A stretch of 36,896 nucleotides of DNA. Source: a bacterium (GTDB taxonomy: Bacteria > Patescibacteriota > Saccharimonadia > Saccharimonadales > Saccharimonadaceae). A program made the translations under genes and the position numbers. This document shows positions 6,584-16,376 of the stretch, in pieces. The DNA is taken from the NCBI GenBank assembly GCA_021781475.1, contig JAJXWT010000009.1, positions 1 to 36,896 on the forward strand, given 5' to 3'. The notes beneath the pieces were generated by a model. It was not told the origin of the DNA, made no database searches, and saw only the letters and a list, made by a program, of their open reading frames with translations. Each line of letters starts with the position of its first letter. The stretch's first letter is position 1.

Positions 6584-6796
6584 ATGCCACGCCATAATAA
6601 ATCACAAAAATATACCCGTGCCACGCCACCAACAGGGGCGTGCGAACAAAAACGACGCTACGCCAATCGGGTTGATGCAGAGCGGCAAGCTGAGCTTGGC
6701 ATGCTACAGACGCCCGGGCTCGAGCTCACAGTATACCAGTGCCAGTATTGCCGGGGCTGGCACCTTACTAGTAGACAAACTGGCGAGTCGGAATAA
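6584..6796 (+). CDS. Small basic protein with CxxC…H (YQCQYCRGWH) putative zinc knuckle
   Basis: MPRHNKSQKYTR…YQCQYCRGWHLTSRQ; 3' end overlaps the convergent gene by 29 bp. Confidence 0.55.
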   Translation: MPRHNKSQKYTRATPPTGACEQKRRYANRVDAERQAELGMLQTPGLELTVYQCQYCRGWHLTSRQTGESE

Positions 6797-9212
6797 GTAC
6801 TTGCGAAGGGTTTGGATGTGTCAGCGAATCAACCGTACCGTTACCAAGCTGGCCAACATTATTAGCCCCCGCCGCGTATACGTTACCGTCGCTCCCCAGT
6901 ACATAGGTCGTGTATTCGTCGCGCGTTGATAAGTCGACAGCCGTCACCCCAGCTGGTAGCGTGAATTCCGCCGTATAGCAAATCGCGTAGTTATTCGAAG
7001 AAGTACCGACACCGCCATTACCAAGCTTACCGTACACATTACGCCCTGCACCGTACACCTGCCCGTCAGTCCCAATAATGAGCAGGGAATTGTATTGGTA
7101 TTCCCAGTTACTATCAAGCTTGTTGTAGTCTACTTTTACCGTGCCGTTTTGGTATATGTTCATGTTAATCGGGCTTGTGCTCGACGTACATAGGCCGCCG
7201 TTTGAGCCGGCGTTTGGCATCGTAGAATAGTTAGCAAATTCACCATAGGTATTGTCGCCCGAGCACCACACGCCGGACGTGCCGGGGTCGTACCGCAACC
7301 CGCAGAACGTGTATGGCATCGATATCATCCCTTTCCATGGGTAGACACGCGTGTTAACGTTCCATGTCTGGCTTGATGTCCCGTTACAGGTATACAGCTG
7401 GGGCTGGGTGCCGTTGGCGGTCGCGCCGCCTGGCCTGTCGATACAGTAGCCTGTATTTTCTTTGAGGCGGATTGTGCTATCCGACTCTACTACCCACTGT
7501 TGGGCTGCGCTCCCATTACACGTATATATTCGCAATTTCGTGCCATTTGCGATTGTATTACCCGGTAGGTCGACACAGGTGCTGCTGCCTGTGGTGCCCG
7601 CCGTGCTGCTAGCCGAAAAGGGCAGCCACAGCGCACCCGTATCGGCAGTCCAAAACCAGCGCTGCGCATCGGTGCCGTTACAGCCATATATATCCAGGTT
7701 AGTCCCACTTGAAAAGTTCGAGCCTATAACGTCTAGGCACTGGCCCGTAGCAGTACTCGCATTGATCGTGCCGCCAGTAGCAGTGTACGAGCTTGGCGAG
7801 TTACCCCATACCCACGCAGGGTTCGTGCCGGTTGAGCCCGTATTTATACCAGTCCCTGACTCACTTTGGCAAGTCGTCGAAGTGCACGACGAGGCACCAG
7901 GCGGTATAATGCCTAAATCTCCAGAAAACCAAATCACGCCATCGGTCGTAAGCACAAAAATATTGCCGCCTTGGCTGCTGTGATACTGCATGAGCACCTT
8001 CTGTACCTTGCGCGCCACGCTACCAGCCGCCGGAATTACGTACTTTACTGGCGTGTACACATTACCGTTTACCGTTCCCGCTATTTGGCCTGTGCCGCTT
8101 AAGCCTGCACAGTACAAATTATTATCGCTCGCAATGACACATGCGTCCCTATCTTGTATCTCAACGCTCACCGCACTAAGGCCTGCCGGCAAAATAAACG
8201 GCGGAACAGTCGCGCCACCCGAAGGTACAAGGGGAACATTGGGCATAGATGAGTTACCATTGCCCAACCGGCCCCAGCCGTCGTCGCCTGCACAGTACGC
8301 TTGGGCAGGGGTTGTTGAACTGCCTGCGATTGCACACACATTGTCACCCCCGTAGCCACTGACCGAAATACTGGTTGCGGTAAGGCCAGCCGGCAAACTC
8401 ATTTTTATCCAATAGCCCGTTTCGACCCCTAGGGCGTCATTACTCGTTGTGTAGCCACCCCGGCACCACACATTATTATCATTGCCAATGATGCATAAAA
8501 ACGTTGCGCCAAACCCCGATGTCTTGACCTTTATCACCTTAGTAACACCCGTTGGCAGGGCCATCTTAACGGGCGTTGCGGCATCAGCAGGTGTGCGCGA
8601 ATCGGTCAGCTGGCCACCGCTATTTATACCAAACCCATACAATTGGTTATCGGCTGTCCAGAACAAGCCCATATCATTCGTCGCGTTGCCGCTAGTACCG
8701 TCATACCCCGCGCCACCAGAAAGCATTGGGGCCGCTGTATTTGAGCTACTGTAGTTAAAAGTTGCGGTCGTAGTGCGCCACACCGTATTAGGGCTTGACG
8801 TTTGGGTTAATTGCAACGTCGCCAGCACCGAATACAAGACAGCGGAGTATTGGCCAGTTGTCGCGGCGCCAACACTAAAGGTAGTGCGTACGTTACCGTT
8901 CAAGAGCACGTAACACTGTGAGGGGGTCGTGCTACAGTTAACGCTTGTGTAACCGGTGCAATCCGACTGTGGCGTCAGCGGGCTGCTGCTGCTCCAGGTT
9001 GCGACACCATTGTTGGCCTCGATACATGTTTTTGCCTTAGCCCAACCCGCTTCGGCCGCCTCGCGCGCAAGTTGCGCATAGTATTGTTCGTCAAGCGCCG
9101 AGCGCGTGCCGCTAATAACCGAAAGCGCCACCGAAAGCGCCATTAACACCAAAACCGATGCTAATACCATTGTTGGGAGCGCAAATCCGCGCTGGCGCCG
9201 TGCCATGCTCAT
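6768..9212 (-). CDS. Pseudopilin-like signal/TM + RCC1-like repeat protein with embedded ricin-B-type lectin region
   Basis: N-term MARRQRGFALPTMVLASVLVLMALSVALS; repeats like VYGAGRNVYGKLGNGG / VYAAGANNVGQLGNGTV; QxW-type repeats QCLDVIG…CNGTDAQRWFW, TCVDLPG…CNGSAAQQWV, YCIDRPG…CNGTSSQTWN. Confidence 0.85.
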   Translation of the reverse strand: MSMARRQRGFALPTMVLASVLVLMALSVALSVISGTRSALDEQYYAQLAREAAEAGWAKAKTCIEANNGVATWSSSSPLTPQSDCTGYTSVNCSTTPSQCYVLLNGNVRTTFSVGAATTGQYSAVLYSVLATLQLTQTSSPNTVWRTTTATFNYSSSNTAAPMLSGGAGYDGTSGNATNDMGLFWTADNQLYGFGINSGGQLTDSRTPADAATPVKMALPTGVTKVIKVKTSGFGATFLCIIGNDNNVWCRGGYTTSNDALGVETGYWIKMSLPAGLTATSISVSGYGGDNVCAIAGSSTTPAQAYCAGDDGWGRLGNGNSSMPNVPLVPSGGATVPPFILPAGLSAVSVEIQDRDACVIASDNNLYCAGLSGTGQIAGTVNGNVYTPVKYVIPAAGSVARKVQKVLMQYHSSQGGNIFVLTTDGVIWFSGDLGIIPPGASSCTSTTCQSESGTGINTGSTGTNPAWVWGNSPSSYTATGGTINASTATGQCLDVIGSNFSSGTNLDIYGCNGTDAQRWFWTADTGALWLPFSASSTAGTTGSSTCVDLPGNTIANGTKLRIYTCNGSAAQQWVVESDSTIRLKENTGYCIDRPGGATANGTQPQLYTCNGTSSQTWNVNTRVYPWKGMISMPYTFCGLRYDPGTSGVWCSGDNTYGEFANYSTMPNAGSNGGLCTSSTSPINMNIYQNGTVKVDYNKLDSNWEYQYNSLLIIGTDGQVYGAGRNVYGKLGNGGVGTSSNNYAICYTAEFTLPAGVTAVDLSTRDEYTTYVLGSDGNVYAAGANNVGQLGNGTVDSLTHPNPSQVLIPTRQFVY

Positions 9213-9294
9213 ATACTTATATAGTAGCACAAGCAGTTTGACTTTCCATAGTGCTTTTGGTTATACTTGTTACACTATATATGGAGGTCACAGG

Positions 9295-11399: not shown

Positions 11400-11446
11400 A
11401 AAGGGATAGACTATCAAACAGATAGCTCGCACACCAAGGAGGCACC

Positions 11447-11692
11447 ATGCCACGTGAAGATGCACCGCAAACACGTGAGGAGCTCATCGCAACGCTACAG
11501 AAGGCGAGGCGGACGCTCGGCGATGCGATCGACGCCTGCGTAGCATGTACGAAATCGCCTGCGTTCGTGGCGCAGGAGGGGCTTGCTGGGCCCAAAGACC
11601 TCGGCACGCTCCGGGCGATCACTGACGGCCTCTGGTCACATGAGGTCCGGCTGCTCTCGCTGCTGGGAAAAATCAAGGGGGGAGGGGTGTAA
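11447..11692 (+). CDS. Small hypothetical protein (81 aa)
   Basis: Strong promoter, AAGGAGG SD 4 nt before ATG, structured terminator after stop. Confidence 0.6.
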   Translation: MPREDAPQTREELIATLQKARRTLGDAIDACVACTKSPAFVAQEGLAGPKDLGTLRAITDGLWSHEVRLLSLLGKIKGGGV

Positions 11693-11701
11693 GGTGAGCC
11701 C

Positions 11702-11780
11702 CGCGGCACACGCCGCACAATTAGGCCGCACGGTCGAGCGTAAGCTCCCGCGCACCCGCCTGACTGTGCGGCCTTTTTGT
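11702..11780 (+). terminator. Structured terminator element, copy A (GCGGC-GCCGC hairpin + AGGCCGCACRGTC/GACTGTGCGGCCT stem enclosing GAGC-GCTC hairpin, then T5)
   Basis: Near-identical to 13656-13734; between convergent small ORF and RT. Confidence 0.75.
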
Positions 11781-12755
11781 TTAGTATGGATGCTGTTTCA
11801 GCACGTGGATAAGTTTTTCCGCCCGCGCACCCATTTGGCGCACATGCCTGCTACGGCTATGAGACGATTCGCCACTAAGGTTCAGCACGCCATTGTAGCC
11901 TGCCATGACCGCCAAATCATGTAGGTCCGTGGGCGCGCCACTTTGTATTTTGGCTTCAGCTTGATTCATTGCAAGGCTTGCAGCCTCTAACAAGGCCGGA
12001 GAGGGTGAAATGCGCCCCTGATATAATGATAGCCCAGTAATCGTAAGTGCTGGATGCTCATTGTCTAAGTGCCGAATGCTGGATTTGTGGTGCGCAAATT
12101 CCATACCTGGCGCCTGTGTAGTATATATTTCGCGAATTACCCGGCGGAACGGTTTGTCAAGGGCGTCAGGGTCAGCGCTAGAAACAGTCAAGTCGTCTAA
12201 GTACCGGGTTGCGCGTTCACCGATATTTCGCATTGCCATGGCGTGCACCAATAAATCATCAGCATCTTTCATATACCAGTTAAATAACAACGGGCTCGTT
12301 ACATTACCTTGTGGCAAGCCATCAACTCCTGGCAAAAAAGCGCCCTCCCGCACATAGCTCTCAATGCGGCGGGCATCATCCCGCTGATCACGCCGGCGGG
12401 CGTGGCGACCTAGGATTTTTTCTACTTTTTCTCCCATGGCGCTTTCCTGAACATGCCCATAGGCATCAGAAAAATCTGTCAAATAAAATATGGTTGAATG
12501 GCGGTGGGGAAGAACGTTGTCACGTAAGCTTTTGCCAAGCACACCACCTGTCGCAATTGGCAACGGAACGCGCAGCGACTGCATGGCGCGTAATGCCAGC
12601 ATCTGCTCATGTCGGACTTCTTCGTCATATTTCCATACCAGGCGCGTGTGCGGGTGATCGTTTTTATCAAACAAAAAAAGCACCGGTTGTAAATCGGCCG
12701 CGTCATTTGCGTTTAAAACTACAGTTTCTTTCTTTCGTTGCATATATGGCGCCAT
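11781..12755 (-). CDS. Retron-type reverse transcriptase (about 324 aa)
   Basis: IFYLTDFSDAYGHV (motif A), GLPQGNVTSPLLFNWYM (motif B), ATRYLDDLTVSS (YxDD), HKSS…LTITGLSL (VTG-like), NVLPH at the NAxxH position. Confidence 0.88.
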   Translation of the reverse strand: MAPYMQRKKETVVLNANDAADLQPVLFLFDKNDHPHTRLVWKYDEEVRHEQMLALRAMQSLRVPLPIATGGVLGKSLRDNVLPHRHSTIFYLTDFSDAYGHVQESAMGEKVEKILGRHARRRDQRDDARRIESYVREGAFLPGVDGLPQGNVTSPLLFNWYMKDADDLLVHAMAMRNIGERATRYLDDLTVSSADPDALDKPFRRVIREIYTTQAPGMEFAHHKSSIRHLDNEHPALTITGLSLYQGRISPSPALLEAASLAMNQAEAKIQSGAPTDLHDLAVMAGYNGVLNLSGESSHSRSRHVRQMGARAEKLIHVLKQHPY

Positions 12756-13320
12756 GTTTATGGAAAGGGGTGCCGCTTGCGCTGCGGCACCCTAGGTTTC
12801 CTCTGGTCATGCGAAGGACGGATAGATTGTTCACGGAGGTTATAGCGCGCATTTCTCCTGCTCGCAGCACACGCCGCAAGTGAACATATAATTTACGCAT
12901 GACAGCCGGAGGCATCGAAGGCTTGCGACCCGCCACGCCTGGTGTGCACCACCGGTCATGGGAAATCACACTCCTACGCCGACTACGCCCACGAGGGGCC
13001 AGCCGGATGATGCAGAATCGCAACGTCGCCACCAGTCATGGTACGCTTGGTCATGATCCCGCACCCGTACGGCGCCAACCACACCACACGGGGTCTGGCA
13101 ATCCGGGGAACGAGTCCGCCGGCACCCGGTCGCCCACTTGCGTGGTCCAGCCGCACTATTGCGCTGCCCATGCCTATTCAGGCTGGTACAACGCGGTAAG
13201 CGGAGGGGGGCTTGGTGACCTGTGCGCACTGTGGCTCACATCCGAATATCGGTCCCTCAGGATATTGCATTGTATTGCTGCCTATCCGCCCTATCCCGCC
13301 AGTATGACCTAAACGGGATG
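12756..13320 (-). ncRNA. Candidate structured RNA / RT leader (putative msr-msd-like RNA)
   Basis: Own TTGCCC-18-TATAAT promoter on minus strand; many consecutive hairpins; no convincing ORF. Confidence 0.5.
12768..12792 (-). other. Perfect 9-bp hairpin immediately upstream of RT start
   Basis: GGGTGCCGC-agcgcaa-GCGGCACCC on minus strand. Confidence 0.7.
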
Positions 13321-13326
13321 CGGACC

Positions 13327-13356
13327 ATTATATATGCGCTAACTACATAAGGGCAA
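13327..13356 (-). promoter_or_regulatory. Promoter for RT/structured RNA unit
   Basis: Minus strand TTGCCC - 18 nt - TATAAT. Confidence 0.55.
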
Positions 13357-13399
13357 CTATAAGCTATTTGCTATTGTATTTTTAAATAAATCTGCTGTA

Positions 13400-13651
13400 A
13401 TGGATAATCTGAATATCAACAAGGGTATTCACTTGGAAAAGGGAAGGATAAGGGTCAACGTGCCCGAAACGGCATACGCGCGCACCAAGGCGATGCACGA
13501 AGACCGGAAGGTTGTTCGTGCCAAGCGTGACAATGCAACGAAGCATGCGCGCCAACAGCTCACCATTCTAGCCACCTTGCTGTGGATCGAATGGAAACTC
13601 GCCGAGCGAGCGTTCGAGCGGCGGTATGGCACCAAGATGACCTACCGCTAG
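13400..13651 (+). CDS. Small basic hypothetical protein (83 aa)
   Basis: ORF followed directly by structured terminator copy B; start uncertain. Confidence 0.5.
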   Translation: MDNLNINKGIHLEKGRIRVNVPETAYARTKAMHEDRKVVRAKRDNATKHARQQLTILATLLWIEWKLAERAFERRYGTKMTYR

Positions 13652-13655
13652 CCCT

Positions 13656-13734
13656 GCGGCAAAGCCGCACAATTAGGCCGCACAGTCGAGCACTACGCTC
13701 CTGTGTACCCGCCTGACTGTGCGGCCTTTTTGTT
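13656..13734 (+). terminator. Structured terminator element, copy B
   Basis: TGCGGCaaaGCCGCA hairpin + AGGCCGCACAGTC…GAGCactacGCTC…GACTGTGCGGCCTTTTT. Confidence 0.75.
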
Positions 13735-13749
13735 AGGCAAAAAATAGCG

Positions 13750-15231
13750 CTAGCTTGCCGCCATAAGCTCCATATCATGCACTGAAATGTCAGGGATATT
13801 CTCGTCGACCGGTGTTTCCTGCACAAGCGCATACACGCCCAACCGCGCTCGCATTGTGTCAGATAGGTCATTACGAGACTCCAAAAGCCATAACGCCTTT
13901 ATGGCCGCCTCAAACAATGCATTGCTCGCAATCCTGCGCCGCTGCATATAGGTCTCTGCCAACGTGGGTTCATGCCCGCCATCATTACTGTTTTGTGAGC
14001 CATCAATAATTTCACGGCGGTATCGGTCCTGGTCGCTAAGGCCCGCATTGGAGTCCTGCTCGTCTAACGCTGGCTGACCAGCATGATTAGCCTCATCCCA
14101 AATCAACTGCTTAACTGCCGCGAGTTGTGCCGAAAGGCGCATGTCCCTGGGACCACGGAACTCTTTTTTGCGCTGCGCTGAACGCCGGGCGAGCTGCTCC
14201 GCCTTAATATTTATAAAGCACAGCTCAACCTCGTGGGTGGCAGCATCCTCCGCACTTTCAAAATATGTTTCGCCGTCGCTCGTTGTCCACATGCCAAGCC
14301 CATCAGTCGTAGCGCCTAACCCGCTCGCTTTGCTATCCGAGGCAAACAAGCCAAGCTCCGCTGGGTTTATCTTACCTGAAGCGTTTTCTCGATAATACTC
14401 CAGCCACGTTTTATATATCTCTGCGGCGTCAATTAGCCAGCTAAACGGATACTGCTTTTCGAACGACTGCAGGCTTGGCGGATAGTCTGTAAATACTAGC
14501 GCATCGTGAACGCGGTCGGGGGGGACAGCAAACTTTTCGGCACACTTTTTTTGTGTATAATCGGGGTCAATCGACCGCATTAGGTCAATATAGCTACGCA
14601 TTGAGCGCGCCTCGTCTGCCTTGGGCGGGTTCACGCGCGCGTTGTTTTCAATAAATTGCATTGGCAGAGCGTCTACGTACGAGATGTTTTCGTGTACGCT
14701 ACTTAAAATGAGTGATTCAACGCTATACCCATGCTGTTCAATAAGTATATCCGCTGCTCGTATTCGCCGCTCGCCAGCAATATGAATGACATACCGCAAG
14801 CCCTTTGGCGTCTGCCACGGGGTCAAATCGGCAAGGGTATACACCCTGCCGCTATCTTGGTTCGCCCGGTTGTATTGTTCAAGGTAGCGAACAGCGCTTT
14901 TTTCGGCATGCAAGCCCTCTATAACGGGCTCCATCAGTTCGTGTACAAGCCCGTCAACGTCTTCGGCAAGCGGCATCGCGTCCGCCAGTTCTTGCAACTT
15001 TACTGGGTCGAACTCCCGGCGAATTTGCGGTAATACGTTAATAACATTACGGGGGATCTCCATAATGTGCCGGTTGCCGAACTCCGCAATTGGCTTACCA
15101 TCCGCACCAAGTTTATAGTGCCGCTCTGTGTCAGTGTTTATGGGTGCGGGCACATTCTCTGGCGCAGCCGGAACTACTGGTGCCGTATTTAGCCCATGCT
15201 CCGTATGTAGTGCCCCGACTCTCTCGCTCAT
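13750..15231 (-). CDS. ParB/Srx-fold-like N-terminal domain protein (about 493 aa)
   Basis: IRREFDPVKLQELADAM…YVIHIAGERRIRAADIL…LPMQFIENNARVNPPKADEARSMRSYIDLM. Confidence 0.65.
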   Translation of the reverse strand: MSERVGALHTEHGLNTAPVVPAAPENVPAPINTDTERHYKLGADGKPIAEFGNRHIMEIPRNVINVLPQIRREFDPVKLQELADAMPLAEDVDGLVHELMEPVIEGLHAEKSAVRYLEQYNRANQDSGRVYTLADLTPWQTPKGLRYVIHIAGERRIRAADILIEQHGYSVESLILSSVHENISYVDALPMQFIENNARVNPPKADEARSMRSYIDLMRSIDPDYTQKKCAEKFAVPPDRVHDALVFTDYPPSLQSFEKQYPFSWLIDAAEIYKTWLEYYRENASGKINPAELGLFASDSKASGLGATTDGLGMWTTSDGETYFESAEDAATHEVELCFINIKAEQLARRSAQRKKEFRGPRDMRLSAQLAAVKQLIWDEANHAGQPALDEQDSNAGLSDQDRYRREIIDGSQNSNDGGHEPTLAETYMQRRRIASNALFEAAIKALWLLESRNDLSDTMRARLGVYALVQETPVDENIPDISVHDMELMAAS

Positions 15232-15336
15232 CACTATTTATATTGCCACACTTTTTTGTGTATTGCCAGTAAACCATGGCATAAATGTATCCGCTTTTGC
15301 TTGCATAGCCACCTGCGCCTTTGCTTTACTCAACAC

Positions 15337-15864
15337 ATGCGTTCCATGCCAGAGTATATCAATGCTGTTAAGCCCTACCTCGAGAAAGCGCCGGAACAAG
15401 CGTTTGAAAATATTCGCACCGTCCGGTCTATCTCACTTGCTGTCAATCAGGCAATTGCGGTCTACGGAGGCTACGAAATCCCATCACCAGACGTATCATG
15501 GAACTTATTGGAATATTGTGCCGATACAAATAGCGCAATCGGCTGGCTTGCCACCATGATAACTATCGATGAAGAATTTGGCTGCTGGTGCTTGCCGCTC
15601 GCAGCAGAATACGATGAAAAAACCCGGGCACGATATCCTCAAGTGTCGCGAAAAGAATATGGCGCACACAGCACGCTTGCACACCGCTTCGTGCTCAGTT
15701 CATTGTTCAATCCAACACTCACACGCGATTTGCACTGGGACCATATTTGCCGCTCACACGCCTGCTGTAACCCGACCCACGGAGAACTCGTGACTGCAAA
15801 AACGAATAATGCGCGCAAAGACCTCAGTCTTCGACACACGACAGGGATGGAGACGTTATTCTAA
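15337..15864 (+). CDS. HNH-type endonuclease domain protein
   Basis: AHRFVLSSLFNP…LHWDHICRSHACCNPTHGELVTAKTNNARK; TTTACT 6 nt before ATG. Confidence 0.7.
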   Translation: MRSMPEYINAVKPYLEKAPEQAFENIRTVRSISLAVNQAIAVYGGYEIPSPDVSWNLLEYCADTNSAIGWLATMITIDEEFGCWCLPLAAEYDEKTRARYPQVSRKEYGAHSTLAHRFVLSSLFNPTLTRDLHWDHICRSHACCNPTHGELVTAKTNNARKDLSLRHTTGMETLF

Positions 15865-15887
15865 CTTGCATCTGTTATTATTGATAT

Positions 15888-16376
15888 ATGCCAAAAAAGA
15901 AACCTGCCGTAAAAAAACACGTAGGCACGCCAATTGTAAATAAGCGCGCCCGGTTTGATTATGACCTTGGCGATGAAATCGTAGCTGGGCTAAGCTTAAA
16001 CGGGCAAGAGGCCCGCGCGGCGCGAGATGGGCATATTCAGCTCAAGGGCGCGTTTGTGACCATTAAAGATAACGAATTATGGCTTAATAACGCCAGCTTT
16101 AGTTTAAAACTGAATCAAAAAGGCGATACCAACGCGCGCACCATTGACACGACGCCGCGTAAGCTGCTTGCCAAACGGAAAGAGATTACCCAGCTTGCCG
16201 AACACAAAAAGAAAGGTATGACCATTGTGCCAACCAAACTGCTCACGCAGGGGCGCTACATTAAATTAGTTATTGCCCTTGGTAAGGGTAAAAAGTTATA
16301 CGACAAACGTGAAAGTCTTAAGCGCCGCCAGCAAGACCGCGAATCGCGGCGCGCCATTGCGGGCCACCACGGCTAG
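15888..16376 (+). CDS. smpB: SsrA-binding protein
   Basis: NKRARFDYDLGDEIVAGLSLNGQEARAARDGHIQLKGAFV…KKLYDKRESLKRRQQDRE. Confidence 0.95.
   Translation: MPKKKPAVKKHVGTPIVNKRARFDYDLGDEIVAGLSLNGQEARAARDGHIQLKGAFVTIKDNELWLNNASFSLKLNQKGDTNARTIDTTPRKLLAKRKEITQLAEHKKKGMTIVPTKLLTQGRYIKLVIALGKGKKLYDKRESLKRRQQDRESRRAIAGHHG

Follow-up and report, generated by a model that had tools for sequence, protein, structure and literature searches.

The DNA analysed here (the window, a stretch of 36,896 nucleotides) carries on its minus strand a promoter, a long noncoding leader and a gene for a retron-type reverse transcriptase (RT) that stands without an effector gene. The arrangement is interpreted as a divergent effector-less retron-like system in which a solitary retron-type RT is co-transcribed with, and acts on, an upstream structured RNA of ~565 nt, a reading to which we give an even chance of being correct. 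The RT and the leader are treated as a unit, in which the RT would bind the folded RNA and copy part of it, because of the class of the RT and the layout of the locus. The features referred to below are as follows, in window coordinates.

11781-12755, minus strand: retron-type RT of 324 amino acids, recognized by RVT_1, PADLOC, PDB profile and fold
12756-13320, minus strand: noncoding leader of about 565 nt, a candidate structured ncRNA (putative template or partner RNA), from fold z score, alignment with G008 and absence of a protein match
12768-12792, minus strand: strong terminal hairpin GGGTGCCGC-N7-GCGGCACCC, immediately upstream of the start codon of the RT
12813-13258, minus strand: possible long-range closing stem (5' arm 13242-13258, 3' arm 12813-12824) in the minimum free energy (MFE) fold, positioned like retron a1/a2
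13144-13217, minus strand: sequence-conserved block CCGCG....ACCA.CC....GGG..GCGCAA from the window/G008 alignment
13161-13194, minus strand: conserved leader hairpin with a 9-bp helix, covarying between the window and G008
13327-13356, minus strand: sigma-70-like promoter TTGCCC-18-TATAAT (10/12 matches)
11400-15890: abcF-smpB interval of the window (congener loci L047 and L165-L174)

The RT open reading frame begins with ATG and matches Pfam RVT_1 with an E value of 6e-12. The RT motifs named in the preliminary description are found in the translation of the 11781-12755 minus-strand frame, where they read DNVLPHR, FYLTDFSDAYG, DGLPQGNVTSPLLF, TRYLDDLTVSSA and LTITGLSL. The catalytic aspartates Asp-94, Asp-187 and Asp-188 (D94, D187 and D188) are invariant among 18 aligned, diverse RTs, and judged from the sequence the catalytic triad of the window RT is intact. 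No other RVT_1 protein is encoded in its genome, a patescibacterial (Saccharibacteria-type) assembly of 809 kb that is 97% complete in 30 contigs, with the window being contig 9; as suggested earlier, the genome is a reduced one, from a very small bacterium of parasitic type. The nearest relative with this RT gene is a Candidatus Saccharibacteria MAG.

The window RT is assigned to the retron type because the PDB profile, PADLOC and Foldseek comparisons all rank retron RTs first. A profile built from nine family members and searched against all PDB chains has retron or retron-like RTs in all top 15 positions (3e-29 to 2e-12), with Ec83 first (3e-29) followed by Ec78, Ec67, Ec86, Kva2 and Eco8; one of the 15 chains is the CART-CAPP RT domain (PDB code 8bgj), which is annotated merely as an RNA-directed DNA polymerase. 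After the retrons come group II (5e-12), Drt2 (6e-10) and AbiK (1e-6) and then telomerase. PADLOC retron clades II-A, VI, I-B and III-A are matched by all nine aligned members, and for the window RT the UG and CRISPR RT models score below these clades. The AlphaFold2 model (pLDDT 84.8) retrieves retron RTs as the top six Foldseek hits and as 16 of the top 18, the other two being group II-like RT. Scores against curated models are 64 bits for the NCBIfam retron family St85 (cutoff 235), 36.5 bits for the group II RT model (cutoff 300) and 23.8 bits for NCBIfam Drt2 (cutoff 390), the last indicating that this is not a UG2-type RT. The retron-type assignment made in the preliminary description is therefore well supported by these sequence and model comparisons, with profile, PADLOC and Foldseek in agreement and with group II, DRT2 and AbiK far lower, and the RT is of neither the group II intron nor the diversity-generating retroelement (DGR) kind.

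The window RT and the retrons (clades I-B, II-A, III-A and VI, and NCBIfam St85) have in common the RT core and a length of about 320 amino acids, and they look alike in the region X signature [N]xxxH, the ITG start of region Y and the placement of a probably structured noncoding RNA directly upstream. Region X is NVLPH in the window RT and NVxxH or NAxxH in the family with the Asn replaced in some members, and region Y starts with TITGL. NAxxH and VTG are the defining motifs of retron RTs (PMC6868368), and validated retrons also deviate from them, 2 of 16 RTs at the Asn of NAxxH and Vc81 by the same Val to Ile change at VTG (PMC6868368). The general RT fold is also common to the group II intron RTs and the group II-like G2L4, but the window RT has no maturase or endonuclease domain and no intron RNA, and the profile and fold scores are weaker. 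The DGRs of Saccharibacteria place RT genes in this host order too (L005, L051); the window RT differs from them in having no adjacent variable-protein gene or template repeat.

The position of the RT within the retron type was examined in a maximum likelihood tree of 50 RTs, in which the retrons are represented by Eco1 together with relatives that PADLOC assigns to types III-A, V, VI, VII-A2 and XIII-like; the tree is without UG/Abi references, and HMM, PDB and fold scores are the measure of how far the window RT is from these. The sampled typed retrons share a clade of 30 (support 96/97) with the window RT and its patescibacterial relatives outside it, and the DGR and group II RTs are far from the window RT. 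The placement inside group II or DGR clades that had been set against the retron-like proposal did not occur, and the idea of a distinct lineage is borne out, a position outside the sampled typed retrons being supported by this sequence phylogeny. Parcubacterial members form one clade (98/90) and the window RT, G008 and G422 another (96/83); a single clade of all 17 patescibacterial RTs is not supported (32/9). In a further difference from the retrons, motif A is DxxxA[YF] in 15 of 15 aligned members, with an alanine four residues past the catalytic Asp in the place of the phenylalanine (DxxxF[FY]) of the three retron comparators. The motif-B glutamine (PQG) is replaced by TG, VG or LG in many family members, and loss of this residue is unusual among reverse transcriptases.

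The family is a deep, little-described branch that is thinly spread through the candidate phyla radiation. Clear members occur in seven genomes of the host family (G000, which is the window genome, G008, G015, G041, G137, G344 and G422), and G405 of the same family has a further member with its RT broken over two contigs (L045 and L046); 27 other host-family genomes pass a loose threshold, most of them carrying other RT types. More members are found in Parcubacteria and related groups, and so far the family is seen only in Saccharibacteria and other Patescibacteria, with a patchy distribution. G008 is the nearest relative with an RT 53% identical to that of the window. Relatives are mostly lone genes amid housekeeping genes, and the viral, plasmid and phage collections searched contained no close relative of the window RT. 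Among the open-access papers searched, none deals with retrons of the candidate phyla radiation, whether in Saccharibacteria or in Patescibacteria as a whole. In G405 the 22-nt sequence AACCGCGTATTTCGCTCGTAGC is present on both sides of the leader-RT unit (L045 975 and L046 518), and these flanks are possibly traces of insertion. The Parcubacterial member at L058:1143-2066 has 76 nt upstream and 409 nt downstream before the next gene, and its RNA, if any, may be downstream of the RT. A bolder reading, which we offer tentatively and as a minority prospect, is that these RTs make up a new class of RT-ncRNA systems without an effector, which would be restricted to the candidate phyla radiation and either sister to the retrons or ancestral to them. 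In such a system an RNA scaffold of ~500 nt would be partly reverse-transcribed and the RT ribonucleoprotein or the cDNA would itself be the active agent.

The promoter is located exactly where it had been read before, at 13356-13327 on the minus strand and 572 nt from the RT start, and is the best of six sites in a 2.2-kb region for which shuffles predict 2.0; the G008 promoter matches 11/12 and lies 597 nt from its RT start. Mechanical translation of the leader gives longest frames of 137 amino acids on the plus strand and of 109 and 87 amino acids on the minus strand. These frames look spurious from their sequences because none has a Pfam match and tblastn against the homologous leaders returned nothing at E < 0.05, so that the leader is not shown to be coding and the earlier statement that it holds no convincing open reading frame stands. 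The leader is richer in GC than its flanks, and the corresponding upstream intergenic spacer is 519-570 nt in five further members compared with a control median of 64 nt. An Rfam scan at the gathering threshold and at a permissive one found tRNAs only, with no match in the leader and no intron RNA. The leader is about three times as long as the 169-nt ncRNA of the Eco1 retron, a difference from typical retron RNAs that had been noted from the outset.

The defense-associated RT systems DRT2, DRT9 and DRT10, in which an upstream ncRNA supplies the template, likewise combine a compact RT with an upstream structured ncRNA, and DRT2 is also without a separate effector gene. With two components, a solitary RT and a long upstream ncRNA, the layout is closer to that of DRT2 than to the three-part retron (PMC12039810, PMC12632851). 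The RT could then copy an internal stretch of the upstream RNA without 2'-5' branched priming, as in these systems, and the cDNA, or an RNA or protein derived from it, would be the active product; on this account an effector is absent because the cDNA or its product is itself active. The profile and Foldseek searches do reach Drt2 and DRT9, but in both sequence and fold the RT sides with the retron RTs and not with UG/DRT. A search for a three-frame stop-free template of the 'neo' type was also inconsistent, with p values of 0.38 and 0.20 for the two strands of the window; the leader has no neo-like template, and an endless open reading frame of the DRT2 type was rejected for want of a consistent stop-free stretch. 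The leader is about four times the size of the 137-nt DRT10 ncRNA and about twice that of the DRT2 ncRNA. Overall the DRT-like explanation appears unlikely.

The predicted fold of the window leader is better than 100 of 100 shuffles (z = -3.0), and the leaders of G008 (z = -4.5), G015 (-3.7) and G041 (-3.1) are likewise better than all of theirs. A structure-aware pairwise alignment, here a simple base-pair-probability alignment with 60 dinucleotide shuffles as the null, gives the window and G008 leaders a score of 275 that exceeds all 60 shuffles (maximum 260), with an alifold energy of -95.9 compared with -83.6 for the best null. The aligned leaders contain 35 compensatory pairs, which is no excess over the shuffle null of 30.5 ± 4.7. 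The 9-bp helix of the conserved hairpin shows two compensatory and two one-sided changes between the window and G008 and no broken pairs; sliding its partners destroys the pairing, and a pair shuffle (130/500) is uninformative with two sequences. Recognizable sequence likeness of the leader is limited to the G000/G008 pair, and a covariance model of the 13144-13217 block has convincing matches only at the window and G008 RT loci among 151 family genomes. No convincing free-standing copy of the leader hairpin was found in these 151 genomes or in 43 pattern-matched viral contigs. The possible long-range stem lies ~21-22 nt from the terminal hairpin with similar spacing in the window and G008; as proof of an a1/a2 pairing it was set aside, being not significant against shuffles except in G137, and neither a branch-point AGC/G nor an msr/msd boundary is identifiable in the window leader. 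Covariance of the leader, proposed as a check in the preliminary description, is thin, with a single close relative to draw on: the fold match to G008 and one covarying hairpin stand on one side and a total compensatory count within the null and a nonsignificant long-range stem on the other. The expected conservation of an upstream RNA does hold, since homologues have leaders of comparable length that share features of the fold, and a real structured RNA is moderately supported.

A strong hairpin before the start codon is present in all seven Saccharibacterial members tested, with a mean of -25.2 kcal/mol, whereas 103 control genes average -14.6 kcal/mol (p = 9e-5). This feature, together with the G008 hairpin scoring as an intrinsic terminator, would fit a leader that acts in cis as a regulatory 5' UTR (an attenuator or autoregulatory structure) of the RT gene, with the template elsewhere. 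However, terminator prediction does not pick out the window hairpin, several members have a poor T-run behind the hairpin or none at all, and the structural signal extends over much of the G008 leader (windowed z of -4.0 at -375 and -3.8 at -150). A simple attenuator needs tens of bases, far exceeded by a leader of about 570 nt, and regulation in cis seems still less likely than the DRT-like explanation. Several members have only modest windowed z scores, and those of L058, a member without a leader, are close to zero.

The abcF-smpB interval containing the RT is an insertion hot spot in the genus of the window, with a cargo that varies by genome. The interval is short and empty in six congeners (G001, G002, G003, G005, G011 and G012), holds a ParB-like gene and two HNH genes without an RT in G007, a ParB-like gene and an IS1595 transposase in G009, and an RT with ParB-like and HNH genes in G000 and G008; in two other genera (G041 and G137) the RT is also within about 3 kb of abcF. 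The ParB-like and HNH neighbors were considered as effectors and rejected, as they are separable from the RT and absent from the empty sites, and they are placed outside the RT system because the hot-spot cargo varies and occurs without an RT in G007. No effector gene linked or fused to the RT is present in the window, as the preliminary description had observed, and the flanks of the other members are housekeeping genes. Most described retrons carry an effector, which is usual and not universal, and the lack of one here counts against the retron-like reading. Effector-less retrons such as Bth1 have been reported (PMC12548924). A retron stripped of its effector and maintained or decaying as cargo would fit the missing effector, the patchy distribution and a site that is empty in some congeners and otherwise filled in others, but this is improbable given catalytic residues invariant in 18 diverse RTs and the retention of intact reading frames, promoter and structured leader at an RT identity of only about 50%.

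Several other observations concern the same regions. In G137 (L036:4216-6138) the family RT continues in frame into an entire YaaA (peroxide-stress) domain (PF03883, E = 5e-63) with a photolyase-like gene directly after; this is the only fused member seen, and an effector fusion or capture of a downstream gene are both possible. Two 71-nt direct repeats (11703-11781 and 13655-13745) are 89% identical and are the only two copies in the genome. Each consists of a hairpin and T-run after a small plus-strand open reading frame (81 and 83 amino acids, family unknown), and they are read as plus-strand terminators of these frames and not as the ends of a mobile element. On the minus strand at 6768-9230 the window encodes an 820-amino acid protein that combines a ricin-type lectin domain (PF00652, E = 7e-21) with RCC1-like repeats and a pilin-like hydrophobic N terminus and may be an adhesin on the surface of an epibiont; similar GFALPT-type N termini occur near the same place in congeners.

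The promoter, leader and RT form one short unit, from which the RT and leader would be co-transcribed in the preferred effector-less retron-like system. By analogy with retrons we infer that the leader may serve as the template/primer RNA. The RT would bind the folded leader via its C-terminal region, as region Y of retron RTs binds the msr, and produce from a portion of it a small, multicopy cDNA that remains joined to the RNA or paired with it, and the terminal hairpin may set the 3' end of the ncRNA and limit translation of the RT. The resulting RNA-DNA-protein particle would serve this reduced genome as a sensor or decoy, with phages or plasmids as the likeliest targets. Any effector would be either the RT or cDNA itself or a gene at another genomic site.

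With an unusual active site (DxxxA[YF] in motif A and a variable motif-B glutamine), the family is a source of RTs for cDNA tools. How retrons arose, what an RT-RNA pair is capable of when no toxin accompanies it, and which defenses very small epibiont genomes retain are questions on which such a deep-branching retron-type family, with its long RNA and no effector, has a bearing.
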